From Amphibalanus amphitrite (taxonomy: Eukaryota > Arthropoda > Thecostraca > Balanomorpha > Balanidae), in the NCBI RefSeq assembly GCF_019059575.1, contig NW_024883012.1:82497-146496 (forward strand): a DNA stretch of 64,000 nucleotides, read 5' to 3'. The notes under the pieces were generated by a model. The model was not told where the DNA came from. It worked only from the letters and a program-made list of their open reading frames with translations, and ran no database searches. Both the position numbers and the translations under genes were made by a program. This document shows positions 14,219 to 64,000 of the stretch, in pieces. How positions within the stretch are numbered: the stretch's first letter is position 1; each line of letters opens with the position of its first letter.

Positions 14219-14310
14219 TAGTTATGGGTGGAGACTACAGAGAGGCTTTTGTATCGATATCTAAGATTGGTGGTAGCTAAATATATTGGGCAATGGTCAT
14301 ATGTAGATAC

Positions 14311-15453: not shown

Positions 15454-16355
15454 CCCTCGCCCGTATAGGGGGGGGGGGGGTCGAACGGACCCCCCCCCCC
15501 ATGGTTTTTGGCAAATAACTCGCGTAAAAAGCGGCCGATCGCAACGAAACTTTCAATACCCTCGCGTTAATCAATTTTACACCTACCCTGAAAATTTCAT
15601 GACCCTGACCCCAATGACCTTTGACCTGTGACCTACTTTTCGAGACCATGTTTGGCCGGAATCGCGATTCGGCGTATGTCGGCTCGCATTAGCCGCGCGT
15701 TTGCAGTCTTTTCGTGGTTTCAAGCGTTGAAACATGTGATATGATGTTGCCCCCAGGCATTAGGGTTGGTTCAAGGTCACCTGAAGTTCAGGTCAGGTCA
15801 TTGACCTTTGGTGACCTCGGTTCACTTTTTCGAGTTTTACATGTTTCTAGGCCAGTTTGTTTTAGCTGAATTCGAATTTAGCAACCATATGAACGAACAT
15901 TTACGAAGTAGTTTTGGTGCCTTCGTAACATGTTACGAAGCTGTCAGAGGCGGTTGACACCTACTAGGAATACCCGGCAGGACCCCTACTGGTTGACCTG
16001 ACCTGACCTGACCCGACCTGGATTAAATGCATAAAGACATCATCTGTGATCAAAACTAACATGATATTCGTGATCAGCGCCCCGAAAAACCCCATAGCAG
16101 CCACACTTAACGACGTTCTAACAGGTCCCGATTTTCCCGACTTTTGGGTCATTGACCTGACCTGCAAGGTCAACCAATAACCTAGGACCTTAAAATTAGG
16201 TATCATCGGCTTCCTCTCGTCACGGGCAACACGCTCGTTTTTCCGCGAAGCTCTAGCTCGATCAGGGGCGAAACGGCAAGGGGGGGGGGTCCAACGGACC
16301 CTCCCCCCCCCCCCTTATACGTTCGCAGCTGGAAAAACACCAATACGGGCGAGGG
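15454..16355. mobile_element. Poly-G hairpin element (902 bp) inserted at ATAT
   Basis: Inverted termini CCCTCGCCCGTAT and ATACGGGCGAGGG are flanked by ATAT on both sides (15450-15453 and 16356-16359). Inside the left end is a G run, TCGAACGGA, then a C run. Inside the right end is a G run, TCCAACGGA, then a C run. The interior holds GGTCAGGTCATTGACC and TGACCTGACCTGACC clusters. Same family as the TTAA-flanked elements elsewhere in the window, but in a non-TTAA target. No transposase. Confidence 0.82.
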
Positions 16356-22557: not shown

Positions 22558-23067
22558 TGAGCCTTAGTGCAGACATAACCTCGAGACACCGCTCAGTGGC
22601 CAATGTCGGTGAGGGTGGACAACTTTGTGAGTCTCTTGTGTCCCACATGCGTGGGTTAATCGTCAATGATACGAAAATATCCTTGAACTCGGCTTTTGGG
22701 ATGGACGGATTGAGGGAACCACATACTACTGGAGAGTATTGTGGTGATGTTATGTAATAAGGTAATAAATGACATCACGTATTAACTGCTTGTGGTTTAC
22801 TAGTCAGCTGAAGTTTTACGAGGGAGTTATTTGATGAGGCTACTCTACCCGTTTTGGTGTAAAGATGGTTTTATAAATTGTGTAAGTGTAATGTAAGGCA
22901 AGCGTGATAACACGAGATCTGAGAGATCATTGAATCTATTTACGCTTATATACATAGCTATTGATTATTATGTTTCTAGGTCGATGTTTTTCAGTATTTT
23001 GAAATTTTGAAATTATGCTCATTCTGTATTCTGGTGTTTAAACTTGTCATAAGTCCCTGCCATAAAA
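22558..23067. other. Intergenic stretch
   Basis: AT-rich sequence between gene C and the retrotransposon. No gene seen. Confidence 0.4.
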
Positions 23068-25261: not shown

Positions 25262-26201
25262 TTAACCCGGCAGTTGCTGGGGTATTTCGCCACCCACCGT
25301 TTGCTGGGGGGGGGGGGGGGGGGCGTTAAACGCCCCCAGCCGATAACTCGAGAACCAATAGGCGCAGCGAAACGCACGAGGTGGCAAACGAAAGAACGCG
25401 ATGAGACGCTTCAGATGAGTACTTGAAAGTTGAATTTTGAGGTCACAGGTCAGGTCAAGGTCAGGTCAAACACCTGAAATCGGGCTTTCAGTAGCATGGA
25501 CTTCAGGACTTCGCAATGGGCGCCTCTCGTCATAAACTCTGTCAAAACGGTGCACAATCCACCATATAAGGCCTGCAAGAGTGTCAGCTCCATATAGGGG
25601 TCAGTCAAGCATAGGTCAAGGTCAAGGTCAGGTCAACCGGGTAGGCACATATCCCCGAAAATCAAAACTGATATTCGCAGCCTGTGACACGTGTTTTATA
25701 GGTAATTTGGGGCGTAGAACACGATGGTGACATTCATTTTATCATATGTGTACGTACGTGTTTGGCTCAAAACGTTCAATTTAAGAAATGCATGTATCAT
25801 GGTCGTGAAGTAGTCACGAGAAATTGCCAAGATTCAGTTCAAGATTTTGGAAAATGTGGAACGATAATCAATAATCGAAGATAGCCATTTGATTGTTCAT
25901 GGTATTGGCAGTCTAGTGGCGTTTACTGCATGTCTGTATGTCTGTTCTGTGATTTTATATGATTTTTTGAACATATGCCGTTTTTGGTCGAAAACTCAGA
26001 AATCATGACGTCACTAAAACCTCGATATCTCAAAAATTTTTCGAACCGATTTTTTTGAAACTTTGTCACAATTAACTTCAATCTATTCCCTACAGGTACC
26101 CAAAATTTGGCGCGCCTGCGGCGCGCCGTTTTTATGCTATGGCCCGGAGAAAAAAGTGGGGGCGTTTAACGCCCCCCCCCCCCCAGCAACTCGCGGGTTA
26201 A
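25262..26201. mobile_element. TTAA/poly-G hairpin element, 940 bp
   Basis: TTAA flanks both ends; termini are CCCGGCAGTTGCTGG and CCAGCAACTCGCGGG. Subterminal hairpins are a G run, CGTTAAACG, C run on the left and a G run, CGTTTAACG, C run on the right, exact complements of each other. The interior carries AGGTCAGGTCAAGGTCAGG (25447 on) and a second cluster at 25613. No transposase. Confidence 0.85.
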
Positions 26202-37808: not shown

Positions 37809-40682
37809 GAGGATAGTGCTAACGCATGGGGTTGGTGTCATCCAGTATGGCTCCATTGATGTAAATCATTGGATGAGTTCCCAGCAAGGGTTTTCACCCT
37901 CCCTTGATACACCTTGTCGTTTGAATGTACCCCAAGGGTATTCACTCTACCCTAAACATTCACCTGATAAGGTGTTATTCAAGGGCGTGTATTCCCCCCT
38001 GTAGACAGAGCCAACTGGGTGGTAAAGGCCCGTGTCAGATCATGCTCAATTTTTTCACCCCATTACTTTCATGTTGTTGACTCGAGTGGTATGTTATGGG
38101 TAGGGTTCATTGTTTCCCAGTTCCCACATGCCCTTTTTGGGGAAAAGCTTTTCAAGTCACAGCTGCAACAAAAGGATAGGGGCAAAAGTGGAATCCACTG
38201 TAGCGTGGATGCATCCCAAACTTACCTAACTTAAAATGACAATTTACGTTTGCCCCAGAAACTCATAGAGTATACTTGACAAGCTAAAACAACTTTGAAC
38301 ATGTTGTTTGAAGCTAGATTTTACAATTCAAACTATTTACAAAATTCGAAACTTAAAAACTAATAGAAGCACTCAAACTTTCCCTGTGGAGCAGCGTGCT
38401 CCCAAGTTTCCGAAGCCTAAAATTGCATAAACTGCGATATATTCCTTACCCTTCCCCCCCCCCCCGATTGTGAGCCAACATCTCCCGTGCTTTCTGCAGC
38501 AGTTCCCTGAGAGCCCGTCACGAGTTCCCCGAACACCAGTTACCAATTGTCAAACCGAACTTAGTCTGTGTTGTTTAGATAGTTATGTGTTAGAGCGCAT
38601 ACCGTTACAGGCGTTTCGATGAAGCCAAAGTTGTTTGTTGTGTTCTGTTGATGTGTTTGCTAGTCGTGCACATTCGATGAATACAGTTCTGTTGTTGGAA
38701 ATATGACGTCATTTATAAAAGCAGCAAAAATATGGGTAATAATCATACCGACAAATATGGCAAAAGTAAATTCATCAAAGTACCTTGGCTCCCATAAAAA
38801 ATTGGTAATAAATTGAGCCTTACCAAACAAAAATATTGAACATATTGTACCATGAAAACAAAAACAGGAATAACATGCTATAAGGCTTCCTGTAGAACAA
38901 TGAAGGCTGAGAAAAACGCCAGAGTGAAAATTCAGCCAATTTCACTTGTAAAACCGTTTCCCAACTTTCAGTCCCTGTCCAAACAGGGCACGTTCTTTTC
39001 ATGACACAAATCCCATACAGCAAGACAAAACGAGTTTTCGCCAAATCCAAATCCTTGACCTGTCGCGTGGTCCTGTGTTCTTGTATCGGAAAAAATACTT
39101 TGAAATCCATCAATGAAACGATAAACCTCAAAATAGGCTTACTGATTGGGGTCATCACAAGTAGCATGCACGGTGTGTCACCATTTCGCAACATAAAAGA
39201 TGATGAAAATAATCCTTCGGATCAGCACATTGTGGTATATAACTCCGCTGGCTCCCAGAATCCCTTCACTTGGTACTTTTTAGGCTACACATACACAGTG
39301 GCAAGCAGTGTCTCTACTATCATGCAACATGTGATCAGTAAGCGATGTTTTTGCAACACATGGAAGCCCCAAAGGTGGGCTCAGTCCAGCGATACCAGCG
39401 CAATCTTTGGTTGCACTTTAGGTGTTGCAAAACTACTCCGCTGTCTGACAAGCCGGCTGGACAAATTTCGCTATCATGTGGACAAACGAGTATGACCAGA
39501 AGCGAACGAATTCACGACGCGTGCTGGGGTATTTCTCGGGACGTATAGCCGATTGTATAAGTGTGCTTGTGAGGAATACTTAAATGTCTAACAGATTTGG
39601 TGGCCTTGGGCATTGATCCCTAGATGGACAAGGCTGGTCGTACCGGCGTCGTTATAGTTTATCCTACTGAAAGTACACTGACTAGGCAGCACTGGTCTTA
39701 GCATATTATAAGAATGCTGGAATGACATTCACTATCATAAGAGGCTAAAGCGGATGCATCTTCCTACATCTTCCTACATATACTGGAAACGTAGTAACCG
39801 TAGTCTCCCTTAGACTTAGCTGTCTCTATGATATCTATAGCGTCTTACCCATCTAGCTTTCATAGCTAGACCACCAAAAATTATCGCGATCCGCGCAATC
39901 AGCGCTCGCACGTGTAGACGCCGTGGTCTGTCTTAGCACCACCGTCACGTGTTGGGGCACGCGGTATAGCCAAAGACGAGTCTGACCGGTCAGTACCCCC
40001 CTCGACCCCCCCCCCCCCCGTGGGGTGACCTATTTGGGAGCAGGTTACGTGCCAGCTCCACGTCCGTCTGTGTGTTGGTGGGATAGAGATTTGGCCTTCA
40101 CAGATGCTATCTTGTGTTGGTAGTGGTTGGGGTGGGGTGGGGGAGGGGATACGCATTCGCAATACGCATGTTTTTAAACAAATGGTGATTCGGTGTCTGC
40201 GACAAACAAACGATGGGTGTGTGATGTAATTTTCAATACGCCCATCCATGAAATATTGTGCTTGTAATAGAAAGAAAGCACTATAACGCAGGCCTCTTGC
40301 ATCGATACTTAGATTCTGATGCACCGGACACCCACTCGAAAATCGAAATTATATCGCAGCAATTTACCTATAAATTCAACCATGCATATGTAGGTTAACG
40401 GTATGAGCTGGTGCAAAAAAATCACTACCACAGGCAAGTTAATCATGAAAATAGCTAGCTGATTTTACCTATACCTACCAGTGGTGTTGGAGGGGACATC
40501 TGGTTTCAATTACATCAATGTAAATTGTGCATGCCCGTAAGAAAAGGAACTAGGAAGCAAGGCGATTTATCACAATAAATCACAGCAAGGCCAAATTTCA
40601 CAACGTTGCTGTGGATAATATTTGTTTGCATTTGCCGACTTTTCATAAACAACTGTTACCAAGTGCGAAACGTTTGAACTGC
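37809..40682. other. Gene-free stretch
   Basis: The 3' flank of gene E and unexplained sequence. The longest frame (39001-39495, 164 codons, plus) has irregular composition, no signal peptide or domain, and overlaps another frame on the other strand, so I do not call it. The stretch at 40000-40150 is C/G-rich. Confidence 0.4.
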
Positions 40683-41726
40683 TTAACCCTCGCCGGACCT
40701 ATTGGTTTTCTACATACGCGCCGGCCGAGGGGGGGGGGGGCGGGTACGACCCCCCCCCCTCGCCGTTTCGCCCCTGGTGGAGCTAGCGCGTCGCGGAAAA
40801 AACGAGCGTGTGCGCCGTTACGAGACGCAGAGATTGGTACCCGATTTTAAGGTCCTAGGTCAACCGGTGACCTCTGAGGTCAGGTCAAGTGCCCCAAGGT
40901 ACGGTTCAGTTTTTGGTGAATAACTTCGCAAATAACGGCCGCAGAGCGCCGATTTTGGCAGCATCGTGTTTGTCTCGCTCAGGCGCGTCGAATGATATAC
41001 TTTTTGTCCGGGTCAGGTCAACTTGGGGTGTTGACCTCAGGTCAAGGTCAGGTCAGCACCCCCAGGTCACGAAGTTGGCCGAAAGAGGTCATGTCGCATA
41101 TCATTCGATTCGGCAGGTCTTCCTGAGTCCATTGGTGGCTTTCCCGACTCGCTAGCTCAATTTGATCAAGAGTTATTGACGAAAAACTAATATGACCTTG
41201 ATGACGTCATAAATGACGTCACGCAAGGTCAACATTGCAAAAGTGACGCATCTAACCTTGCAAGGAGTGCATCAAATCACGATTCTGTGTGCTTGAGATA
41301 GTTGGAGATCGTTCCCGGCGCCAGAATAGCAGTTTGAATTTTTCCCCATTGACTTATAATGGTGAGGTCACGAAAATGACCTGACCTCATATGACCTTTA
41401 GGAAAAATCCGAGATATACAAGTTATGAGACTCATAATGGATACTAGATCCTGCAAGTTTCATTTCCCTGTGACATCTCCTCTGGCAGTGAGGTCGTTGC
41501 GAAGTTGCGACATCTGAAGACCGTGCAGAGGTTCACTTATGACGTCATAGGTCAGTGACCTGACCTGACCCAAAAATGCGGTTGGTGTCAAAAGATCCGG
41601 CTTGAATCAAAGGTCAGGTATGCCAAGTTTCAGCTTTCTATCGCCAGCGTGCTCGGAGCTATTGCGAAAAAACCCTATGGGGGGGGCGGCACCCGCCCCC
41701 CCCCCCCCTCGGCCGGCGAGGGTTAA
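40683..41726. mobile_element. TTAA/poly-G hairpin element, 1044 bp
   Basis: TTAA at both ends; termini CCCTCGCCGG and CCGGCGAGGG. Left subterminal hairpin: G run, CGGGTACGA, C run. Right: G run, CGGCACCCG, C run, each side followed or preceded by CGGCCGAGG/CCTCGGCCG. The interior has AGGTCAAGGTCAGGTCA at 41039 and two TGACGTCA palindromes near 41203-41221. Homologous in its left half to 1-580. No transposase. Confidence 0.87.
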
Positions 41727-41897
41727 TATCTTCTAAAACGGCAGCTAATGAATTGAAGTCAGTAAATGCGAGGAGTTTGGGAACTCCCTCCCAGATGCAG
41801 AAGCATCTGTCTCAAAACGCCTCTATGTTTCAAGTACCTACATTTTTGAAGTACAGCCAAGGGGCCCAAGTTTCATGTGGGGATTTTAGTGACCTAC

Positions 41898-41973
41898 CTC
41901 CCATTTGCAGGATCAGTATCTCCTCCATGTAACTCCTCCTGTCGCTGTGGTCTCTCATGTTGACGAGAGACAT
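41898..41973 (-). CDS. Candidate first coding exon of an unrecognised gene
   Basis: On the minus strand an ATG at 41973 opens MSLVNMRDHSDRRSYMEEIL and continues to QMG, then donor GTAGGTCAC at phase 1 (25 codons plus one base). The peptide is hydrophilic and protein-like, with no signal peptide. The phase matches the orphan exon at 31698-31816, so the two could join as ...LQMG-G-DEAIS... across a 10-kb intron containing gene E on the other strand. That link is inference. Confidence 0.4.
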
Positions 41974-43518
41974 CGTGATGTCGTCTCGGCACAGCCGTCT
42001 TGAATCTGCTTCTTTGACACAGCTTCCTGGATAATGTCCGGTTCCAGGCAGCTTCCTTGGCGATGCACTATCTCACAGCTTCCTTGTCACCGTTATGTCT
42101 TCACACACCTTCCTTGACACTGTCTACACTGCTTTTTTGACACTGCTGCTACTGCTGACGATGTCGGTTTGTGTTGTCATCATCTGCTAGTTAATCATCA
42201 TCACTGGTTAACCATAACGTTGTGGGCAACCATCAGCACTCCCTTTGCTATAGTAGCAGAACTCCCTTACACTGCTTCGCCAATTTCCCTCGTTTTCGCG
42301 AACGCCGTAGTTTTTCACAGAACACTGTTGTAACTAGTCTGTTAGCGTCTTACTCGTCGCGTGATTAGAATGGAAGCCAAATACGACGATAGGCGTCTAT
42401 AGGCAAGTCTCTGAAGATGTCCGGGAAGCAGAGCTCAAGTCTCTTAACTGGAACGCAGAGTACTTAGACACTCGCCACAGCAAGGTATTGTCTTGCTCTC
42501 GAGATAAGACTTCGCGCGATGCCACTCTTGACACACAACGCGAGTGTTCGTTATACAGAAGAGCTCTTCTTTCATCCACTATCAGACCTTTGCAAGGTCA
42601 GTGCAAACGATTCGCAGGTTTCACGTTACTGGTTCCTTGTTATGCGTGATTTTCCTCCGGCGACTCCAGAAAAATCACTTCTCTGACCAGGATGTGGCTT
42701 CAGTTTTGACATTCTAGACACCCGCAGAGGCTCAGGCAAGTCCGAAGCAATGCGGGAACCCACCACCTATTCTGTGCATCCAGTCAAAGTGATCCACGAT
42801 TTCAGTGATAGGCTGCGTGGGACGACTTGGTGGATATCTAGTGTCAATTCTCTGCGCCAGTGACACAGCAAACACTAGAGTCGCATTGCCCAGCGCATGA
42901 CACGTCCGGTAGTGCCCCAGGTAGTCACAAGTGTCCTTATGACTCCGCAGCGTTGCGTTCCGCACTGTCAGCTTCACACTCTGGTCCGAGCTCTGCCAAA
43001 CGCTGGAAGATCCTCAGATCCTCACACTGACAACGAAGTATATGGTCACTCTCTTGCCACATTCACAAAACGAACGAGCTGCTCACGAATATCTCAATCC
43101 TCTCAACCATCACGCTCCATCTTCAAACATCTCACCATCCACCAAAACCTCAATTCTTACACATTCCCGCTCTTCACCAAAACCTCAACACCCGACACCA
43201 CACACACAGCTTCGCTCCACGCGATATCCACTGTGCTCCGCCCTGGGCCGTATCGTGGCCTGGCTAAGGCCATATCTGTATCGTAGCTCAGCTAACGCCA
43301 TATCTATCCACGGTGCCGACACCTGGGCTGCCCCCGACGCTACGAACGAAGGCATGATAAGATAAGAGTGGGTGCAGATCGGTCGGCTATGGTGGAACTG
43401 TGCTATGTGAGGAGGCGATGTATGTGACAAATGTGCACTGGGGTGGTACCGGAGTAGGTTGGTGGGATGGGTGTGTTTCCGCTGTTGGTTTTGATGTTGT
43501 TATGGTGGACTTTTTATC
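41974..43518. other. Gene-free stretch
   Basis: Probably the upstream region of the minus-strand exon at 41.9 kb. Several short CTTCCTTG-type repeats occur at 42020-42140. No other gene is supported. Confidence 0.35.
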
Positions 43519-43735
43519 TTAATCCGCGCCCCGTTCAGGGCTGGCAGGTTCCACGTCCTATGGGGGGAGGGGGCCTCCCTTCGTATCTCCGGAACCAATA
43601 GTCGGATCAGAAAATGCAACAGCATTCGAAAGAGCCCAAGATGCACAGGAAAGGCTATTCAGTATTCACGACCTTGATATTTTACCTGTGACATCACAGG
43701 GAGGTCAGGAAAGGTCAAATCAGCCCAATTTACAG
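43519..43735. mobile_element. Left-end fragment of a TTAA/poly-G element
   Basis: TTAATCCGCGCCCCG, a G-rich hairpin (TGGGGGGAGGGGGCCTCCC) and ATCTCCGGAACCAATAGTCGG follow the order of the complete elements, ending in AGGTCAGGAAAGGTCA. No right end was found. Confidence 0.5.
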
Positions 43736-44113
43736 TGAGGAGAAGTCGGTTATAAAAATGAAATCTAGGTTTCCAAAATGAGTCTGGATATGATGTATAT
43801 CATAGATCTGACATGTGGATAGATCATCTGAATGGATGGTGACTTGTGACGTAAAAAGAGAGGTCAGCCTCGACCAATCAGAAGACGCTTGCGTGAATCG
43901 TGAGGAACGGCCTGCTGAACTGTGGATATTCGAGTCTTTACCTCGGGTCATGTTCACAAAATAACCTCATAACCGTTCCTGGGTTGGCAGGGATTACAAA
44001 TCCTCTTCCCTTCATTTATCCAATAAAGGCCATGGTCACTGGACGAAAGCTGAGCAATATTTCTTTGAGCTACATTGGCAATTGATCCGTGGGAGCAGCA
44101 CCATGACCCGTCC

Positions 44114-45427
44114 ATGACAACTTGCCAGTCAGTAGTTTTGGTCTTCGTTGTCATGCTGGTGAGTGCATTTTGAGTGAGTGGAAAGCTGTGAGTGTGATCC
44201 TTTTATGGTTAATCGTATTTGTATTTACACGGTGAAAATACTTCCAATTTATGATAGGTATTTGCAAACGCTAAGCCAACGGGAGACTAAATGTCAACGC
44301 TTTTTGGGGCAACATCAAATTTTCTCTTTAACCCTCGCCCGCACATGCCATTTTCCCATCCTAGAACGCACATGGTGGTTGCCATCCTCCGTGCCATTTC
44401 GTTCCTGTTGGAGATAGAGCTTAGCGGTAAGACCAAAAAGATTCTTTGGGAAGAGACAAATCCAATGATACCCAGTTTTACCTGCTCAGGTCAGTCATTG
44501 ACCTTCCAGGTCAGGTCAAACTAAAAAATGTTGCTGTTTTGGGTCACCGTTGGATATCAAGTGCGCTGCTTATCATATACCGATGACGATGCCGTTTTCT
44601 GGTGCCAAGCCAGCTAGAACCTCTTTGTCACACTACCCGATCAGGTCTGTGCTGCTGAGGTCATTTCAGGTCAAGTTAGGTCAAGGTCAATGATATGTGT
44701 TTGTATGTCTGTGTGTGTCTGTATGTATACTGATGTGTGCACCGATTGTTTATGTGTCCATATTACATGAAATCATGATCTGAGAAGCTTTTAGCAAAAA
44801 TGCAGTCAAAAAACTTCACAAAAAGTAAATTCCGCTTGCCTAAAACGCAATCATCTTAGATGACCTAGGTTGACCTTGGCCTTGACCTTGACATCTGTAC
44901 ATCGTCGAACGACATATTCCATGATGGTGGGAGGTAAGACTGGCAAAAATGGCTGAAATCAAGGTGTCAAAAGCTCACAAGGCCCATAGCCAACGCAAGA
45001 TGTTGAGAATTGGCCATTTGGGTCATGACATGACCTGAAAAACAAGGTCATATCTCCGAAACCAAAAACCACAGAAACATGAAATTTTCAGTGCACATCA
45101 AAAAAGGATACAGGAGCAGCTATACGAAAAATCAGCCTTCTAGCTCTAAAAATGTTGAGTGCAGAGCAGAAAGACTACCTAGGGGGGGGGGGGTGGCAAC
45201 CACCCCCCCCCCCCCCCATGTGCGGGCGAGGGTTAAAGTGGGTAGGCAAATGCATTAGACAATGTATTTACATCATAATCCGCTAATAGAAAGTGATTTT
45301 TATTTTTCCTCAGATAATCACTTTGATTACCCCGCGAAACAAGGTATCAGCCTCCACTTCTGGCCAAAGCAAGTTGGCTCTAGTTTTGAAGACGCTACTG
45401 GGATCAGAACCGGAGCCAGAGTTTTGA
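44114..45427 (+). CDS. Possible small secreted-protein gene interrupted by a TTAA element
   Basis: Candidate exon 1 is 44114-44158: hydrophobic MTTCQSVVLVFVVML followed by donor GTGAGT, the pattern of first exons in genes A-F. Candidate exon 2 is 45314-45427 after the strong acceptor TATTTTTCCTCAG. Read at phase 0 it gives IITLITPRNKVSASTSGQSK and on to EPEPEF, 37 residues. The joined product is 52 aa. The intron would hold the element at 44328-45236. A short upstream frame ATGACCCGTCCATGA overlaps the start. The Arg/Leu-run motif of the family is missing. This may be a diverged relative, a broken copy, or chance. Confidence 0.3.
44328..45236. mobile_element. TTAA/poly-G hairpin element, 909 bp
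   Basis: TTAA at both ends; 20-base termini start CCCTCGCCCGCACATG and mirror perfectly. The right subterminal hairpin is a G run, TGGCAACCA, C run. On the left the matching loop TGGTTGCCA is present (44371 on) but its G and C runs are eroded. The interior has AGGTCA clusters at 44490-44515 and 44660-44690 and a TTGACCTTGGCCTTGACCTT stretch near 44870. No transposase. Confidence 0.86.
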
Positions 45428-45531
45428 ACAGAGAGCACCGCACTTCTGAACTGCTTCTGCCTTCTGAAGAGAGAAGCGCTGCCCAATAAGTGCCCCAGAT
45501 ACTCAGTCAGCTCTGCTGAAAGGAAGGAACA

Positions 45532-45538
45532 TATATAG
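45532..45538 (+). promoter_or_regulatory. Orphan TATA-like sequence resembling the promoter of gene D
   Basis: ACATATATAGGGCCTTGCAAGG resembles CGCATATATAAGCCCTGCAAGG of gene D. About 70 bases on, ATGGGAAGACAACCTGCTTGA resembles its exon 1 but stops after six codons. It could be a relic of a lost family member. Confidence 0.25.
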
Positions 45539-46755
45539 GGCCTTGCAAGGAACCAACCAGCTGCACTAAACAGCGAAACAACCAGCGGGAGGGCTTTTTT
45601 AAGTTATGGGAAGACAACCTGCTTGAACTATTTGGCCAGACCCGATCAATCCCTTGTGGTATCCCTCACCTTTGTATGAATGTGTGTTTGTATGTTTTCT
45701 CACTTACACTATATGTGTGACTAAGTATCACCTTGTCTATGGTATAGAGCACAGCCTACATGCTAGGTTAGCTATCAATGTATCCACTCACGTGAGTGTC
45801 TCCTGATCATTGGTTACATGTTGATGATTTATAAACAACAAAGCTATTTTATCTGCCTCAGCTTAGACAGCAAACCCTCGCCTGCCGATCGATAATCTTC
45901 ATTAGAGTGTGTTGATTCTACTTTCCAATAAACAAACTTCCTAATCACTGCCATGGCTGGATCAAAAGAGGTAAGGAAAGGCGGAATCAGAAATGATAAA
46001 ACTTGAAAACATACAAATATGTTTTTCTGTCGTTTATTAGCACCCACGTCGGCGTAAACAATGATGGTAACAATCGTGACTTAGTGTGTTACAAAATGCA
46101 GCAATTTGATAGTCAGTATCACTAATATTCGTTTACAATTGAAGGCGTCTGAACACACATAATAACAATGTTTTACATTTCGTACCCGATGCAGTTTTGA
46201 ATGAAACAGCCAACATTCTGATTATAAAACTGACGCGGCGATACTCGAAAGATGCATGCTGAATGAAATGGTGGCATGGGATTTGTGTTTTATTCTCTAG
46301 TTTCGATAACTAACTATTCTAAACATCAAACATTGATATAAACACTGTAGTGCACACTTATCAATCTGAAAACCCGCTGAAAGGCACCCCTTGGTTTGGA
46401 CTAGGCAGACTTTTTACTGGGCAAGTCAGAGAGAAGCAGAGACGGCGTCGACTTGCGACTTGCAACAGCACTGTACTTCAGCTAGTTTCAGAGAGAAGCC
46501 GAACTTCAAGAAGTCAGAAGTTAGCAGCTTCTTTCAACCAGCCGGGAAGCCGCAGGTTCAACTTCAGCCGGTCCGACAGGACCAAACGTCTCAATCTTCC
46601 CTTCCAACAGATCCATGTCTTCAGTCTTCTTCTGACTCTTCGAGGTTACCCGAAGACATCTATCATCCTTCAGCCTTCAACCACTTTAGCTTCATCATCC
46701 CCACCCACTGATAATGTCATCTTCAACCTCCCCATACATCATCCTCAACCCCTTC

Positions 46756-48043
46756 CTAGTACACAGGCTGTTCACCGTATCCAACCGGCTGCTGTACCAC
46801 TTGCTGGCCATACCCCGTCACTGGTTGCTCCCCATAGCCCACCGGCTGGTGGACAACCTCCTGACCATAGCCCGACACAGGTTCTTCATAGGTCACCGGC
46901 TGGTGTACGACCTCTTGACCATACCCCACCATAGGTTGGTGGTACGCCACCGGCTGTGGGGCGTATTGAGCCTTAGGCTGCTTGGCGTAAACATCAACCG
47001 GAACGTAGTGCTCGTACTTTGGCTGCGCCTTCACCTGCTGGACCTGGACTGGTTGGATGTGAAGAGGCTCCAGCTCAAGCTTCTCATACTGCACTGGCTG
47101 GTACTTGACCTGAGGCTGCACCTGCACCTCCTGGTATTGCACCTGCTGGACGGGTTGGTACTGCACCTGCTGCACAGGCTGGTAGGACTGTTGGACCTGC
47201 ACAGGCTGAGCGTAGCTGATGGGTTTCGCAGCCACCACCTTTGCGGCAGTACCGGCGGTACCCGCTGCACCAGCCACTCCAGCTAGCTTAGCAGCCTTCG
47301 CTTTCGCTCCGAGGGCAGGAAGGAGCAGCGGCCCCTTCAGGAGGAGGGCTTTCTTGCCGAGGAGGAGAAGAAGACGGGCGCGCCGCGCGCTGGCGGCATC
47401 CTTCGGGGCTTCGGCGTCGGAGGGTTTTTCTTCGGCAGCTGCTGCGGCCACCTGGGGAAGAAAAGAGTCGGAGGTGTTGTAAAGGGCAAGTGAGAAAGGA
47501 CACCTGAGGTCACATGGGGTGTTTGAGTTTTTTTTTGCATTTGCTTAGGGTACAGCGTAAATTTAGGTTACAGACATGAATGGAATTCATATGAATTGCA
47601 GTAAGATTGAAATTGTTTGAAAGTTATTTTAGATAAGGTTCACCTGGAGTGACTACATGAGTTCCATTTTCATCCCTTTGCTACTACATTTTAAAAATCA
47701 CAAACGAATGATATTTTGACCTGCCCGAAGAGATTATTCTTTACAATCGTTTAGGCTCAATTTTCTTCTTCTTTTTTTTTTAGTTATAATTGCCGAGCGC
47801 TCTGCTGCTTTGCACGAGCAGCTATAAGCGCTCCATTTGATAAATTTAGTAGTGTAGTTATGTTCACAGTTTTCGTCTACGAAAAGTGACAAACTTTATA
47901 ATCATCGACCAGTGAAGCAAAACCAGCTAATTATAGGGGTTTGTAGCCAAACTGAAATAGCACCTATCTCAAAATCACTCCAAGACGGACATAACAGCTT
48001 CACTCACCGCCAGCACTGCCAGAAGCACCACAAAACTCTTCAT
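46756..48043 (-). CDS. Gene F: secreted Tyr/Gln/Pro/Val-repeat protein, two exons
   Basis: Exon 1 is 48008-48043 (MKSFVVLLAVLA), donor GTGAGTG. Exon 2 is 46756-47451 after TTCCCCAG, phase 0. The 243-aa product completes its signal peptide as VAAAAA. An acidic spacer (EEKPSDAEAPKDAASA) and the family motif RRARLLLLLGKKALLLKGPL follow at about residues 36-55, then an Ala/Gly/Lys hinge. The rest is repeats: VQQVQYQPVQQVQYQ in the middle and four or five units of the type GYGQEVVHQPV/GYGEQPV at the end, closing in PVY. Tyr, Gln, Pro and Val dominate; no Cys. Composition fits an extracellular structural or adhesive protein (inference). A minus-strand AATAAA at 46289-46294 may end the transcript. 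The plus-strand frames over it are shadows. Confidence 0.87.
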
Positions 48044-48104
48044 CTTTCTTCTTATCACTCCCAACCACACTGCAGCTCTACCTCAGACCCCATCTGAACC
48101 GATA

Positions 48105-48111
48105 CTTTATA
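48105..48111 (-). promoter_or_regulatory. TATA box of gene F
   Basis: On the minus strand TATAAAG lies about 65 bases upstream of the ATG at 48043. Confidence 0.7.
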
Positions 48112-48900
48112 CTCTCCAAATTTGCCCCGAGGGCAAAAGACCGGTCGATCATGAATGCCAATCAATTGACACTGCGCAACAGTAGCTCTGACGACAACCG
48201 GAGTCTCGTGGTTGGAACATGAACCGGTAAAATTGCATCTCGCTTCACTACGCTGCAGAGCGGCGGTGAGGAAAGATTTCTGGTGATGTATTGGATTCGG
48301 TTAGCGTGGATGTCGCCGAAAGTCACGTGGCTTTGGAGGTAATAGCTGTGGTCGGGTGGTGAAAAACATCGGAGTACTGAGTTGGGTGTGGGCTTGGAGT
48401 GGTTCCGTGAGACTTTACTACATAACCACGTGACTTTTGTCACTGGGCCACTGTGTTCGGTATAGGCTGCGGCGTCTGGTCACGTGACGCAAGCCACCAG
48501 ACCAGTCTGCGAAAACAATGGCATGCAGGGTGATGAGTTTGTTAGGTAATATCAACAGGTTTTGATAATTCTTGCCGGGCGCGGTTTTTAGAAGCTGGCG
48601 GACAGGTTCCATCATTTCTCTCACATGAATGCTCCGAACGCAGCTCCCAGGCTCGTGATTTCAGAATCGTTACCAACGACAGCTCTGCATGACTCAGTTA
48701 ATACTTCATCAGAAGTAATTAAAAAAAAATCACTATAATCAAAAGTAATCACTCAACGTCATAAAAAACTGTTAGTAATGAACAGATGACTGAAATACGC
48801 AACGCATGGATGGACACTCGTGGATAAATTTATTCACCAGTACCTATACGAGAATAAAACAGTTTGCTTTATTACCGAAACGGCGGACTGACTAACAGGC
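48112..48900. other. Gene-free stretch upstream of gene F
   Basis: Several CACGTG-like and GTCACGTGAC words occur between 48310 and 48490 (possible E-box sites). No gene is supported. Confidence 0.35.
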
Positions 48901-48904
48901 AAAA

Positions 48905-48905
48905 T

Positions 48906-48969
<64 letters not shown>
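48905..48969 (+). repeat. (GACA)n microsatellite
   Basis: About 16 uninterrupted GACA units followed by a C run. Confidence 0.95.
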
Positions 48970-49013
48970 CCCCCCCCATACCCCGACAGGAAGACCCACA
49001 GCGACATACAGAC

Positions 49014-49275
49014 TAGAGATGTCAATCGGATACCCACTTTTTGGTATACCGATACCAAACCGATACCAACTTGGTATTTGGTATTTCAATCGTAATGTGT
49101 TTGGTATTTTGTTGGTATCATAAGCCCTCATTAATGTATTAGAGGCTAAGAAATCGGTAAAAAGTTGGTATTTCCCTCAGTTTCCCAAGTTGGTTTGGTT
49201 TCGGTATTCTCCCGTGGTTTTAGTTGGTATTTGGTTTGGTATCGGTATTCCGATTTTCCGTGATTGACATCACTT
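49014..49275. mobile_element. hAT-like MITE, 262 bp
   Basis: TAGAGATGTCAATCGGATAC at the left and ATTGACATCACTT at the right, with a perfect 8-bp target duplication ATACAGAC (49006-49013 and 49276-49283). Strongly similar along its length to 14311-14612, with the same GGTATACCGATACC interior. Confidence 0.87.
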
Positions 49276-49283
49276 ATACAGAC

Positions 49284-50477
49284 AGACCCCTCCCCCCCCC
49301 TACACACACACACATACCGCTCGCTGACGCGACCCATCCACACCACCTCAAGTGCTCGCCACCCACCGCTACAGGTGTTCCCACATCTGTGTTAGGCAGT
49401 CGTCAGTTCGACCTCTACCGCTCAAAGGGTCGTCAGGCTGTCTGATAGGCGGAGGGAGAGAAGAGAGCTGAAGACAGAATAGTGCGGAGGGAGAGGTAAA
49501 ACGCTGGAAAAGGTGGGTTTGACATTGAATTTTTGGTAGCGATTTGCGATGGGATTGTTTAGCGTTACCGTGTAACATGTGTACTTGCCATGTCTTTTCA
49601 CTGTCTTATTGTTCTGTTATACCTATTTTCAGAGATATTTACTCAGTGACATCACATCTTATCATTATGCACGAGGTGACTTGATAGCATGCATTTGTAT
49701 TGGACAATCATTTTCAATTAATTCCAAATTACCATTTTTCTTGGCACTTCAGCTTTATTTGTGCAAAAAATCGGTTACATAGTGTATTTATACTTACTTT
49801 TCACTGTAATTGCATTTGTCATGAACAACTTAGATTTAACTAAGCAACAATTTTTAAGAAGTGAAAAGTTGAACTAAACTTAACAACCTTTCCACTACAA
49901 AATTGATACATACGTATACTTGATGAAAACACCAGCCCCCCAACAAAATGACGGTTTTCTTAATTTATAAAAAGTACGCTTTCATTGCTGAGCGAAGTAA
50001 AAGGATAGGATAAGGATAGGATAGGATAGGATAGGATAAGACTGCTTAGGATAGAATTGGAAACCTTATGTGCTTAGTTCAAATTTCAGTGCTCATATCG
50101 TACACCAGTCAGTGTGCACAGCCATACGCGTTTTAGAAGTTTAGACCATCATCGCTCGAGCTGTTTTAATTTAGCCCCACAACTTTAGGGCCGCATTTTT
50201 TAGGGCCACACCTCCACGAGATTTTGAATTTTGCGTTTAGGACATCACAAAAGAAAACTTTACGGCGATGAAGGACTTTATTCAAAGCGTCGTTTCCATG
50301 ACAACCAAGCTCCTGGACGGAGCCCCGCGACACGATTACTTTGTAGGGCCTTGGTTTGTAGCGGCACGGGGGCAGACGCGTCCGAATCCTGTCCGCTTTT
50401 TCATTAACCCGCGTCCTGCTGGGGGACGGGGGGGTTGAACATCCACTGCGGTTTTCCGCGATCCACTGATATGCAAC
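49284..50477. other. Gene-free stretch with a (GGATA)n tract and an element fragment
   Basis: No gene. A GGATA pentamer repeat lies at 50003-50040. At 50404 TTAACCCGCGTCCTGCTGGG followed by a G run looks like the left end of a TTAA/poly-G element whose right part is missing. Confidence 0.5.
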
Positions 50478-50763
50478 ATGACGTCACATGCAGGGGCGCG
50501 GGAACTACTTTCAGACTGGGGGGGCACACCATAATAGAGACCAACCAGGGGTACCCCCAAATCTAGTTTTCTCACCGGTTTTAGGCCACTTATTTTTCAT
50601 CCCTTGGCTTTTTCAACAAAAAAAGAACATTTGCAAAAAAGTGTGGTTTTCTGTCTCAAAGTTGTGGGGGCACCGCCCCCACGGCCCCAGAGTTAGGGGG
50701 AGGGCAAGCTGCCCCCACTGCCCCCCCCCCCGGTTCCCGCGCCAATGGTACATGTGACGTCAT
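50478..50763. mobile_element. MITE-like element with inverted ends, 286 bp
   Basis: ATGACGTCACATG then CAGGGGCGCGGGAAC at the left is mirrored by GTTCCCGCGCCAATG then TACATGTGACGTCAT at the right. The inner parts (CAGGGGCG...) resemble hAT ends, but the inverted symmetry continues outward into ATGACGTCA, so exact ends are uncertain. The interior has paired G/C-rich blocks (GGGGGCACCGCCCCC). Confidence 0.6.
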
Positions 50764-51077
50764 TTAAACTTTTTATTCAAAGGATAGTATATTCGTAACA
50801 TCCAGAGGAGCCTGCGCAGAAAGTCAAATAATTGCGGCCGAGTCAAGGGAAGTTCTTTGCATGAAGGCAATGCTGCCATATCTTGTTGCGCTAAAAGAGG
50901 TTTTCAAAGATTTACTTGACATGTGGCAGGCTGCCATCGATTTTAAAATGGAGTTTCGTCAGAGTGTTAGAAATTGTTAGAAATTATAATGATGGCCCAA
51001 AAAAATTTAGGGCATCACTTCCGATGAGGCTCTAAATTTGTCCGTGCACTTATTGCATCAAATAGCATTGAAAAAAT
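50764..51077. other. Gene-free stretch
   Basis: Nothing recognised. Confidence 0.4.
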
Positions 51078-52129
51078 TTAACCCTCGCCCTGGCAGGGGG
51101 GGGGGTCGATGCGACCCCCCCCCCCCCCTAAGGTTTTTCGAAGATAGCGTAAAAACGGCAGCGCGCAGCGCCGCCAAATTTGGCACAGCCTATGGGGCAA
51201 TCTTTTTACATATGACCTGAAAATTTCAGGTCCGGGTGACCTTGGGTCAGGTCACCAGGTCAGAAAAACCGGTACAAGGTCATGGTCAAATTTCAATTTT
51301 CTTTTTGCACCTGTCCAGCTCACAGTTTTGGACTGATTTCCTTCAAACTTTCAGGGTGTGCTAAGTTCACCGAGTTGTATAACATATAGTTCGGGTTTTT
51401 TGAGGTCACTGACCTGAGGTCAGTTAGAGGTCATTACGTCGTAATGTTAAGCCTATGGGAAAATACTAAATTCGGAAAATACTGGAGATATCCGCTTCGT
51501 TCTATCACTTTTGTGCTTTGAAACCACAGTACTTAACAGCAGGTCACTTGGTGCTTCTTTGTTTGGTGTACTTATCCATGGGTCAGGTCAAATGAGGTCA
51601 ACTGAGGTCAAATGACGTTTTTGCCAATAACTTGGCACATAATGACGCTAGAGCTTAAAAATGGTGTCATTGTGTTCCTGGTGATCAGCCGAATCGAATG
51701 ATATGCAATATGATGCAATTTGGTTAACTTGAACTTAATTGATTAATTAAAGTTTACTTAAAAATTAAGAAAAACTTTAAGTACACTTAAGCAAGCTAAA
51801 TAGTATATCATTCGACGCGCTTTGACGTGCTGAGTTCACTGGTGCTTTTCTTTTTGCTCTATCTTAATTAGATCAAAAGTTATAAGCGAAAAACTTTTGA
51901 CCTGTTTTTAGCGAAATTTTTACATTTATACCCCCCAAAACCCCCCTAAATATTGATCTAGAGCAACCAAATTTGCACAGGGGCGAGAACTCCGGGGGGC
52001 CCACCTACCTACCAAATTTGGTGTTTCTAGGTGCCATAGGAGCCAATCGCGAGGGGGGGGGGTCGCATCGACCCCCCCCCCCCCTGCCAGGCCGTGTTAT
52101 GAAAAATGCCCTGCCAGGGCGAGGGTTAA
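51078..52129. mobile_element. TTAA/poly-G hairpin element, 1052 bp
   Basis: TTAA at both ends; termini CCCTCGCCCTGGCAG and CTGCCAGGGCGAGGG. Subterminal hairpins are G run, TCGATGCGA, C run (left) and G run, TCGCATCGA, C run (right), exact complements. On the right a 29-base segment (CCAGGCCGTGTTATG...) separates hairpin from terminus. The interior has AGGTCA repeats (51240-51610) and an AT-rich TTAATTAA hairpin near 51720-51800. No transposase. Confidence 0.87.
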
Positions 52130-52384
52130 GTCATCAATTTTTGATGACGTAAATTAAAATCTTTGAATTTTCTGGTTTAGAGCCGCCAAATGTGGCGTTA
52201 AGTGGGGAAAACCAAAGCTCAAATATGCGGCTTGTTGGCCTTCGATTCAGGTCTGCTGAATCCTTGACAGTAGGTGTGTCAGCCAAACCTGTGAGGAAAC
52301 CATTCGTTTTCACCATATTTCACACATAGGCTTCCCTCGCCCATTTGCATTTTGTGAAGGCTTCCGCTCCCAAGACCATCGTCA

Positions 52385-52394
52385 GAGAAAGAGA

Positions 52395-52475
<81 letters not shown>

Positions 52476-52524
52476 AGGGAGAGGGAGAGAGAGAGAGGAG
52501 AGAGAGAGAGAGGAGAGAGAGAGA
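52385..52524 (+). repeat. (GA)n purine tract
   Basis: About 140 bases of almost pure GA with a few GGGA interruptions. Together with the CT tract downstream it can form an inverted repeat. Arg-Glu frames here are artefacts. Confidence 0.95.
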
Positions 52525-52572
52525 TGCCAGAGAAAAGGAAGTAGAAATACCAAGCTAAATAACGCATTCTTT

Positions 52573-52681
<109 letters not shown>

Positions 52682-57200: not shown

Positions 57201-60200
57201 TTCACTTCGCAAAAGTAACTTTTTTCAATGTCAGTTCTTTCTTCATCGTATCAAAATCAATTTTTATTTCAGTGCTTGCTTGTAAATTTTAACTGTTCCT
57301 TATCAGACTCTCAATCTTCAATTATCAGTTCACCTCTTTCTCCCCTTTCCCTTTCGCCAGTTCCTGATCCGTAAGCAGTCGGAGGAGATGCAGGACCTCA
57401 AGTGGAGGATGGCTGAGGCCGAGCGCCGCAGCAAGGATGATCAGAAGAAGGTCCTCATCTACAGGCGCAAGGTGAAGGAACTGCAGAACAGCCTGCAGGA
57501 GCTGCACGTCAAGGAGGTGAGAGACGTGGGGGAGACGTGGGGGAAGACGTGGGGGAAGAACAGGGGGAGACGCGACTTGGGGAGACGTGGTAGAAGACAG
57601 GGTGGTGGGAGAACAGGGTGGATACATGGGGGAGAACAGGGGAGACATGGGGGACTCGTGGATACGTAGCGGAAGGCGTGGAGAGACGTGGGGTAGACGT
57701 GGGTGGGGGAGAACGGGATGGATTTATGGGGGAGCTCGGGGATGCGTAGGGGAAGACGTGGGGAGACGTCGGGGTAAATGTGAGGGAATGGTTGGGGGGG
57801 GGGGGACAGAAAGATGGGATGCACACATGGGTGTCGTTTTGTACAGGCTTGATGGTGTCTGAGCCCTATCAATAAGTTCCAGAATTTTCACGAACGCTAT
57901 GAAAAGATGACAATAGTATTCAAATATTTACACAAGAAAAATGATTAATATTGTTATATATGATACTGAAAAAGCGAAAGGGACATGAACTGCTGACCAC
58001 AACCACGAGGTTCTTTATTTACCTACACTTAGGTATGCAGTCCTCGGAATGGGACGCCGTCGCATCCCCCCCCCCCCTCATTGTGTTTCTCGCAGCAGTA
58101 ATGTGATTTCCCCCGGTAATCAAGTAAAGTAATGAAGTAATCAAAAGTCAATCACAGTAATCTACTCAAGTAATTGGATCAGTCTCCTCGGGGCTCGATG
58201 GGTTACGGACAAAATTACGTATCGCTAAAGTACGTAGGACAAAAGTACGTAAGCAAAAGTACGTAGGATTAAAGTACGTATCGCAGAAGTACGTACAGTA
58301 TAAAGTACGTATGGACAAAAGTACGTCAGGGACAAAAGTACGTATCGCAGAAGTACGTACAATATAAAGTACGTATGGACAAAAGTACGTCAAGGACAAA
58401 AGTACGTATCGCAGAAGTACGTACAGTATAAAGTACGTATGGACAAAAGTACGTCAGGGACAAAAGTACGTATCGCAGAAGTACGTACTGTATAAAGTAC
58501 GTATGGACAAAAGTACGTCAGGGACAAAAGTACGTATCGCAGAAGTACGTAGGGTATAAAGTACGTATGGACAAAAGTACGTCACGGACAAAAGTACGTA
58601 TAGCTAATGTACGTAGGGTAAAAAGTACGTATGGACAAAAGTACGTCACGGACAAAAGTAAGTATCGCAGAAGTACGTAGGACGTATGGACAAAAGTACG
58701 TCACGTACAAAAGTCTACGTATAGCAAATGTACGTATGTACGTAGGGTATAAAGTAGGGTAGTCTTGGGCAAGACGCCCCAGATAATTTATTTCGCTACA
58801 TAGGTACCTACTTTTGTCTCACATCACCTGGAAGGCCAAATTTGTGCTCAATGTGTTCTTTGGACATTTTACTTTAAATTCCATCCCTCAAATTCATTCA
58901 CTTATGATCGGACTCCCAGCTAGGAAGTGCTTTGTGAAGCAACTGCAAATGGGGCATTTTGCCCCAACCCCAGGGCAAAACGCCCCACGGCCTGAGGCAA
59001 GAAGCCCCATACACTAGATTAACCCTCGCGGGCCCGGGGGGCGTTTTTCGCCCCCCTCCTGGCGAATATTTGCGATAGCTCCCGAACGCTTAGTGATAGG
59101 AAAGCGAAATTTTCAGTACCTTTTCTTCCATCAATTTGGCATCTTCTGAAATAAAAAATTTGGACTTAGCCCCATTGATGACGTCACAAAGTCGATTTTT
59201 CTAGACCCTAGTGGTTAGTAGTGGTGGTAGTGGTAGTGGTCTAGTGGTTGTCGCGCGATTTATCTCACGAGACCATTTCCAAGATCTCCACGTTGCCGCC
59301 CTCGCCGTCCTCTGCCGGTCCGCCGGGCCGGGGGCCGCCGTCGTGGGGCGTCGTGGCGCCGCCTGGCTCGTGAATAGGTAGTAAACACACTGGCGACAGG
59401 CAGCGAGCGGTGCGCCGGACGCTAAATTTATTGACGGATCACGGGGGTGACAGATGTCTGCTATGGGAGAGTGCCTGGTGATGTTTAGAATGTGTGTAGC
59501 ATGCTCGAGTGTGAGCTGCTACCGTGCTGCTGGGTTGATGTGTGCTGATGGATGGGTGTTCCGATCAATAAACGTGAGAGAGAGAGAAAAAAAAAGTCCT
59601 CTAGAACGCTCACTTTGAGATCACTACACATGTGCCGGTTTTTGCCTTTGACCTTGACCTCTGACCTTGAAAATTGACCTGAGGTCAAAAATTTTGGGTG
59701 CTTTAGAAGCGTCTCGTAAGGCCCTTTCGTTTGGTATTGCTTTTGTTTGCGTAGCTCTCTTATTTACGGAGTTAGACAGGGGGGCGAAAAAACGCCCCTT
59801 CCCGGGCTGCGGTGGTTGGAATTACCCCCGGGCCCGGCCGGGTTAACAGAAGAGAGGATCTTTCCCCAGAACCCTGCCAGTTCCGAGAAACATCGGTGAG
59901 GCGTTTTACTTCAGCGAGGAGACTTGCCCCGGTCTACTCTACGTGTGGACAAAAGTACGTCACGGACAAAAGTACGCATAGCAAATGTACGTACATAGGG
60001 TATTAAGTACGTACCCCACCGTTCGGTTAAGTTGATCAATGTGTAATACCTTTCTTATTCTTTATTTAATGAGCATTTGTTACAAGGCATAGCAAAATTT
60101 CTCGATGAGTAAATGGGCGAAATGGACAAAGCTATATTATTTGGTATATGAATTTATCATGAGTTTCCTGTAGTATGGCAACAGAGCAGCAATAAAGAAA

Positions 60201-62865: not shown

Positions 62866-64000
62866 TTAACCTTCCAGGCGGTGGGGGGGGGGCATTTTTT
62901 TGCCCCCCCCCCTTTAGTTTTTTCGATATATCTCGAGAACCGCTGCGCCGATCGTCACCAAACTTTCAGTACCCTCCCGGGAGCAGATAGCGCAATGGTG
63001 ACCAAAAATTTTCCAAATGCTATGATAGGTTGGCCGCTAATGACGTCAGAGTGACGTCATTTTTGCCATTTTCGACCCAAAAAAAGGTTTCGCCGGAAGA
63101 GCTGTCAGGCCTACAGCTTTAGAGATACAGAAAAAAGTTTCAGCCATAAAAGGTGTGGAATTAAAAGGGCTACAAAACTGCTATTTCGGTTTTTGGAATT
63201 TTTTGGATTTTGACCCCCAAAAATCAAAAAATAGATTTTTTGAATATAATAGCCAACAAATCCTAAAAGTTTTTTGAATTTCGAAAAAAAGCGGAATATA
63301 TGTGATAGCCCCTACCGCCTTCTATCTACATACCAAATTTGAGATCGATACCTCTTTTTTTGGCCAAGTTATAGCGAAAACACTGTTCAAAATTGATGAC
63401 GTCAAATTTTCAAACTCAATTTTTAGCAATTCTGGACCTCGTAGCGCAAAACAAAGACCACCATTAGACTCCCCGTGACGAGCTGCATCGAATCGATACC
63501 CATTTTATGCAAAAATATCAATTTTGAAATTTGACCTTTTTTGACCTGACCTTGACCTGATCTCCACCAGAAAGTGACCTAAACCGTACCTGATGGTCTT
63601 ATAACCAACACCATTGAGTTGGAAATGAAAAACTGGCCATAAAACATGCATCGCATAACCTTAGTAAAGTTGGGCTCATGTGGTGACCCTTGGTGACCTT
63701 TGGTGACCTGACTTGTGACCTGACCTGGTATGACCAGTGACCTCTAATAGCAACATATGTACTAGACAACTGACGCCTTATCGCTGATTTTCGACAAAAT
63801 GCGTTTTACTCGGTGTTATAGCGCTTTCCCTAGAAGCCCCGTGAACGGTGAAACATTTTATCTTTGACCTGACCTGTGACGTCATCGGTGACCCTGAGGT
63901 CAATGAAATTTGGTTTCCATCAACAAATGTGACAGGGCTATCGAACGCCGTTTGAATTTTTCGGATCCGTCCAGTAGTTTCGGAGATACGGGGGGGGGGG
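62866..64000. mobile_element. TTAA/poly-G hairpin element, runs off the window
   Basis: TTAACCTTCCAGGCGG at the left, then a hairpin of G run, CATTTTTTTG, C run, then ATATATCTCGAGAACCGCTG and AACTTTCAGTACC. The interior has dense TGACCTGACCTTGACCTGA (63534 on) and TGACGTCA sites. At the window edge a G run begins, in the position of the right subterminal hairpin. Confidence 0.8.

Follow-up and report, generated by a model that had tools for sequence, protein, structure and literature searches.

Elements with poly-G palindromes and matched end words in the barnacle Amphibalanus amphitrite: probable piggyBac-type transposons

Introduction

What keeps the two ends of a mobile element alike when the same words differ from one element to the next? 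The question is raised by a stretch of 64,000 nucleotides from the barnacle Amphibalanus amphitrite (NCBI RefSeq assembly GCF_019059575.1, contig NW_024883012.1, positions 82,497 to 146,496, forward strand), referred to here as the window, in which complete elements carry near their ends hairpins composed of a G-run, a short core and a C-run. A first-pass annotation, made from the sequence alone, had suggested that the matched hairpins, which vary between copies, are copied as a pair or obliged to pair with each other during mobility, as if every lineage had a key of its own. The analysis reported here leads to another answer: with a probability of about 0.87, the elements are non-autonomous transposons of the piggyBac superfamily, and a single transposase binds both ends, keeping a 7-bp box and a palindrome alike within a family while these words diverge between families.

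Elements of the window and the layout of their ends

The six complete elements that had been listed, each starting with CCC and ending with GGG, are all present. TTAA, named in the annotation as the flanking sequence, stands on both sides of five; E15 (at 15454) has ATAT instead. Hairpins lie just inside most ends, but E44 lacks any G or C run on its left side (GTGGTTGCCATCC), and in E59 the right-hand hairpin is interrupted (GGGAAGGGG). Because the core is itself palindromic (TCG-ATG-CGA, CGTT-A-AACG), what had been called a loop belongs to the stem. Complementarity between the cores of the two ends stands for the four pairs originally quoted (E51, E25, E44 and E59); in the two elements missing from that list the cores, each read inward from its own end, match only partly (TCGAACGGA / TCCGTTGGA in E15, CGGGTGCCG / CGGGTACGA in E40). 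By their box and core words the six elements are six distinct families, the interiors of E15 and E40 being alignable over up to 174 bp; the reported variation is thus one between lineages rather than between copies.

No stop-to-stop open reading frame of at least 130 amino acids lies within the six complete elements, and an Rfam search of window positions 40000-53000 returned no match. With no inner transposase gene and a high copy number, the window elements are miniature inverted-repeat transposable elements (MITEs), that is, non-autonomous DNA transposons.

The two ends of a family differ in length. One of them, the long end, carries the 7-bp box that precedes the G-run twice, and its G-run is displaced by 27 bp in 10 of 13 families and by 26 or 28 bp in the other three. 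Forward ends on contig C1 fall into the same two classes: among the 100 matches listed, 44 are short (mean 45.2 bp, standard deviation 2.6), 55 long (73.9 bp, 3.2) and one intermediate.

Matching is confined to the box and the core

Thirteen families in which a short and a long end could be paired were compared, with cores delimited by hand; elements known from a single end (E62, F1, F2, F3, L022, L029, L031 and L047) were omitted, and E44 was represented by the long-end string of copy L041 and the core of the window copy. Similarity between short and long ends was 0.85 within families versus 0.48 between families for the core, and 0.82 versus 0.36 for the box. Each gave a permutation p of 0.00005, the floor of 20,000 shuffles, which held when shuffling was restricted to tip classes but overstates independence, as several of the 13 families are related: interior homology links E15, F6 and F10, links F2 and F4, and extends to parts of F2/PB-B and of E62/F1, and L028 and PB-B have a core in common. 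This is the covariation test that the first-pass annotation had proposed, and its view of ends alike within a lineage and variable between lineages is borne out. Over the 18 bp just inside the hairpin, similarity was 0.41 both within and between families (p = 0.54). End matching is therefore confined to two short words, the box and the core.

Outer positions of the core are paired in 65 of 78 cases over 26 ends, giving a palindromic internal repeat at both ends. The two words also occur in separate combinations. By eye, the core TGTTTGAACA was found with the boxes CCCTGCT, CCCAAGT and CCGGGCC, and the box CCCTGGT with the cores CTATTTTTTG and CCATTTTGG.

Cores are fixed within the E51 and E40 families

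The E51 family was drawn from 26 loci (L056-L081), of which 25 were usable once L074, whose long end was not found, had been dropped; the long end of L071 was read by eye. All 25 long ends and all but one of the 25 short ends have the core TCGATGCGA, and the only altered short-end core (L057) is paired with an unaltered long end. The two cores together show one substitution in 450 site-copies, where the interior rate of 0.0166 predicts 7.5. At all eight loci of the E40 family the short and long cores of the window copy recur, a fixed mismatch between the ends. The ends match family by family, without homogenisation, and constancy of this kind speaks against a key per copy.

The runs are less constant. 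Among the 25 E51 copies, G and C run lengths range from 6 to 14, so that the distance between box and core varies by as much as 8 bp. Six correlations between run lengths were tested, uncorrected, and three reached p of about 0.05 or less with mixed signs: LE_C/RE_C (rho -0.52, p 0.009), LE_G/RE_C (rho +0.41, p 0.048) and RE_G/RE_C (rho -0.40, p 0.051). Run-length coupling was on these grounds rejected as a sign of hairpin-templated copying; the negative correlation between the C-runs of the two ends possibly reflects subfamily structure.

Abundance and status of the G and C runs

Across the 807.5-Mb genome, the pattern TTAACCC, gap, G-run, gap, C-run was matched 46,911 times on the forward and 47,352 times on the reverse strand, or once per 8.6 kb, which at two ends each corresponds to several tens of thousands of elements. 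The same pattern reversed gave 22 and 18 matches. The annotation had named assembly artefacts as a danger to its reading; since some 94,000 ends stand against 40 in the reversed control, the runs are not artefacts as such, although their exact lengths may be imprecise. First-look candidates numbered 3258 for the E51 family and 2712 for the E40 family, and about 25 box/core combinations were counted by eye in the first 3 Mb of contig C1.

Nine G or C runs of at least 10 lie outside the seven window elements, one of them in a broken E40-type copy, and such runs favour slippage as a contributor to the G and C runs. This broken copy occupies window positions 1-589, with 82-89% identity to E40 in two stretches and its left tip beyond the window.

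Autonomous relatives and the piggyBac layout

The transposase domain PF13843 (DDE_Tnp_1_7) has 116 matches in the genome, and the surroundings of 46 were fetched. Two autonomous families with poly-G palindromes at both ends were found, which bears out the expectation of the first-pass annotation that the elements are piggyBac-like and that a copy encoding such a transposase exists. PB-A measures 3.97 kb (both ends in L039 and L052, a single end in L053 and L054) and PB-B 4.72 kb (both ends in L051 and in L048+L049, which form one copy). Their proteins, 37% identical to each other, match PF13843 at 7.6e-70 and 9.4e-60, respectively, and carry a cysteine-rich tail with the cysteine pattern of the CRD. 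Their best PDB match is the piggyBac transposase of Trichoplusia ni (6x67; 2e-78 and 1.2e-56), the alignment running through the CRD. The transposase from L052 is 98% identical along its whole length to a protein assigned to A. amphitrite, and contig C171 carries a copy. A weaker match is piggyBat of Myotis lucifugus (3.2e-30 and 4.6e-21), likewise of the piggyBac superfamily, which differs in that its right end lacks a matching palindrome and its CRD is folded differently. Copies of PB-A and PB-B are flanked by TTAA, except for GTAA at the long end of L054. PB-A has the box ACGACCA twice at its long end and ACGCCTA at its short end, and the short end of PB-B has the tip CCT. In both families the transposase gene is followed by the long end, just as the long end of piggyBac is located 3' of its gene.

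Two further observations concern these loci. Near positions 314-318 of L052, two PB-A copies stand head to head with one TTAA in common, and L028 contains, at 6-3825, a piggyBac-type element nested in a poly-G element; the ends of the inner element are CCCATTAGTGCC and its transposase frame is intact.

With T. ni piggyBac (LE35/RE63; PDB 6x67 and 6x68) the barnacle elements share the TTAA target, the CCC tip, a box at bp 7-16, a short-end palindrome centred near bp 25, a long-end repeat of the box 27 bp inward and the CRD pattern of the transposase. In piggyBac, bp 34-63 of the right end are nearly identical to bp 7-35 of the left end, the palindromic internal repeat is bound by a CRD dimer and the DDBD sits on bp 7-16; the asymmetry of LE35 and RE63 was termed a puzzling arrangement (PMC7351741). 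The annotation had known of no described family with such an architecture; that claim is wrong, since T. ni piggyBac shares everything but the G-runs. The barnacle palindromes differ in having arms that are G and C runs of variable length, and the barnacle words are family-specific, most copies being non-coding and very numerous. Rather than a transposon architecture of a new kind, these are piggyBac ends in a poly-G form. Three features are unusual: arms made of poly-G, a radiation of this size and, inside most families examined, clusters of AGGTCA about 170 bp apart.

Coral CMITEs are also non-autonomous, with TTAA targets, CCC tips and families with different terminal inverted repeats; they differ in a length of about 100 bp, and the available part of their description contains neither a poly-G palindrome nor a box duplication (PMC2872659). 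In A. amphitrite itself, PiggyBac-3_Aamp has been reported as recently active, in a survey that excluded MITEs and in whose main text the stem "palindrom" has no occurrence (PMC10813416). Palindromes were also sought in the 14 ends of seven piggyBac-type families without poly-G. One end each of L009 and L035 had a palindrome with its centre at bp 24.5, equalled by 0 of 200 shuffles, and L013 had one at bp 61.5 (1 of 200); that of L043 was weak (20 of 200), and at the remaining ends palindromes were weak or no better than shuffles.

AGGTCA clusters in the interiors

AGGTCA, the half-site of nuclear receptors, is the most frequent hexamer in the interiors of 10 families (125 occurrences in 7.86 kb). 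Each element or non-coding segment holds 3-21 sites, compared with 0.3-0.8 in first-order Markov shuffles, the lowest count (3, in the 3' segment of PB-A) being equalled by the shuffle maximum. Clusters of AGGTCA/TGACCT occupy the interiors of E15, E25, E40, E44, E51, E59 and E62, recur in L039, L048, L051, L082 and L084-L087, and lie in the non-coding parts of PB-A and PB-B, whose open reading frames contain 0 and 1 sites, respectively. In two piggyBac-type families without poly-G, AGGTCA occurs at 0.7 and 1.5 per kb. The class with CCCTATT tips has few or none (L045 0, F3 3), so the clusters are not found in all poly-G families. Within the E51 family, change is 3.7 times rarer at AGGTCA columns than in the rest of the interior (0.0049 versus 0.0180).

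The clusters are regularly spaced. In all families but F6 and F10, 35 of 41 gaps between clusters measure 140-200 bp (median 169), the rest being 73, 204, 224, 316, 380 and 590 bp. The best period is 178 bp (p = 0.0005 versus random placement, in 11 segments with at least three clusters, several of them homologous). A spacing of about 170 bp resembles the nucleosome repeat. Genome-wide, AGGTCA pairs at a gap of 147-177 number 293,304 and 291,050 (reversed control 3,864 and 3,363) and pairs at a gap of 63-93 number 35,735 and 34,255 (control 5,167 and 4,532), making in-phase pairs 8 times commoner than half-period pairs. In the first 253 kb of contig C1, 67 of 100 listed in-phase pairs lie at most 1.3 kb inside a listed hairpin end; such stretches make up about 9% of that sequence, the reverse ends being known in part.

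A tandem-repeat origin of the spacing was rejected, since the segments between clusters are mostly dissimilar (54 pairs, mean z 1.3 forward and 1.7 reverse); strong inverted similarity was seen in two pairs, in F4 and F2. In the literature consulted, with subscription journals and Repbase outside its scope, neither poly-G palindromes in piggyBac ends nor AGGTCA arrays in transposons stood out, and absence from print is not claimed.

Feature coordinates and neighbouring sequences

The window elements and their parts are listed in Table 1. The last element, E62, runs into the window end, where a G-run at 63990-64000 may represent the second of its palindromes. Elsewhere in the window, long open frames resembling long interspersed nuclear elements lie at 11447-14221 on the reverse strand (reverse transcriptase and endonuclease domains) and at 23053-24822 on the forward strand (reverse transcriptase domain). 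Tandem repeats with units of 64 bp and 73 bp occupy 58202-58713 and 60248-60831, respectively; AAGTACGTA abounds in the 64-bp unit, and related sequence recurs at 59931.

Table 1. Window positions of the elements, their palindromes, boxes and AGGTCA clusters.
Feature	Position	Strand	Description
E15	15454..16355	+	902 bp; ATAT flanks; palindromes 15468-15500 and 16280-16314
E25	25266..26197	-	932 bp; TTAA both flanks; long end left
E40	40687..41722	-	1036 bp; TTAA both flanks; long end left, short end right
E40 long-end palindrome	40729..40759	.	G-run / CGGGTACGA / C-run
E40 AGGTCA/TGACCT clusters	40857..41616	-	five, 162-190 bp apart
E40 short-end palindrome	41679..41708	.	core CGGGTGCCG, reading inward
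E44	44332..45232	-	901 bp; TTAA both flanks; long end left, short end right
E44 long-end core	44376..44384	.	TGGTTGCCA; no G/C runs in window copy
E44 short-end palindrome	45182..45217	.	
E51	51082..52125	+	1044 bp; TTAA both flanks; short end left, long end right
E51 short-end palindrome	51096..51128	.	core TCGATGCGA
E51 AGGTCA/TGACCT clusters	51213..51610	+	three, centres about 167 bp apart; first sites 51213, 51403, 51541
E51 long-end palindrome	52053..52084	.	core TCGATGCGA, reading inward
E51 long-end double box	52085..52118	-	inner CCTGGCA, 20-bp spacer, outer CCTGGCA; duplication absent at short end
E59	59023..59842	+	820 bp; TTAA both flanks; long end right
E62	62869..64000	+	short-end palindrome 62883-62912; truncated by window end

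Discussion

Read inward from the target, each end presents a CCC tip, a family-specific 7-bp box and a palindrome. The box is placed as the site that the DDBD contacts in piggyBac and the palindrome as the internal repeat bound by the CRD dimer, with the box present twice at the long end as in RE63. By this analogy, CRD and DDBD would bind the palindrome and box words and co-evolve with them: a transposase supplied in trans would bind both words at both ends, and words and protein would change together when a family arises. Because one transposase must bind both ends, box and palindrome would be alike at both ends within a family.

This arrangement also makes self-pairing during mobility unnecessary, since one transposase binding both ends suffices. 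The wider proposal of the first-pass annotation, that both hairpins of one copy are copied jointly or pair with one another, which would mean homogenisation of the ends by conversion, template switching or strand pairing, can point to the box and the core changing in concert at separate places of the element and to the correlated C-run lengths at the two E51 ends, albeit negatively and in one of six tests. It is nevertheless very improbable. The ends are not copied as a block, because their inner flanks are unmatched, the change at one end of L057 is not mirrored and the E40 mismatch is fixed in every copy; the cores of both families are, moreover, fixed. Simple descent of each family from one ancestral inverted repeat, the match not being maintained thereafter, appears quite unlikely too. 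Matched ends are expected of any terminal inverted repeat, and the relatedness of some families suits this idea. Yet when short ends are compared between families, their inner flanks resemble each other more (0.56) than do their boxes (0.40) or cores (0.47), while remaining unmatched to the other end; within a family the box matches at three places, the shift of 26-28 bp persists and E51 cores mutate less than the interior. Membership among the Kolobok elements, which likewise duplicate TTAA, is almost certainly wrong: the target is common to both, but Kolobok ends are RR...YY (PMC9587614), in contrast to the CCC...GGG of the window elements, and the autonomous relatives encode PF13843 transposases closest to piggyBac. 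Kolobok identity was rejected on termini and transposase.

Several observations weigh against recognition of both ends by one piggyBac-type transposase. E15 has ATAT at its flanks. In L045, F10 and PB-A the cores of the two ends match only in part, and one family with CCCTATT tips may have different cores at its two ends: in the CCCTATTCCTGGCGGG family, the core is CCTCAGGAG at short ends and CCGATTCGG at long ends, which are unpaired and not proven to belong to one element. The E51 copies were the best-scoring 40 or a part of them, a choice by which intact ends may be favoured. In none of the 46 PF13843 matches fetched, out of 116, did E40, E44 or E51 words stand at both ends. In the LE35 oligonucleotide of piggyBac, the palindrome is centred at bp 25 but is unremarkable by the scoring used here, 24 of 200 shuffles being equally good. 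Finally, the 6-14 G's between box and core in the 25 E51 copies make a looser geometry than the fixed spacing of piggyBac, although E51 copies may have changed run length after insertion. The run may be read by the CRD, or such changes may have affected many copies; the palindrome arms may be G and C runs because the CRD reads them or because slippage keeps them.

A broader reading, tentative and on the whole doubtful, would make of these ends a modular, fast-changing recognition code built from separate box and palindrome combinations, in which G-arms permit a variable distance to the CRD site without loss of binding and AGGTCA clusters bind a nuclear receptor or chromatin factor of the host. 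If so, the clusters would tie expression or transposition of the elements to host physiology, and tens of thousands of copies would have scattered receptor arrays through the genome. The clusters, nearly absent from the two piggyBac-type families without poly-G, are a separate and testable surprise.

PiggyBac is a widely used gene-transfer system, and the barnacle provides a natural library of its kind of ends, with about 25 box/palindrome combinations and some 94,000 ends. In it the words change but the 27-bp duplication persists, which supports the duplication as a working part and lends independent support to the 27-bp asymmetry of piggyBac ends. With such a library, sequence comparison could be enough to read the recognition code.

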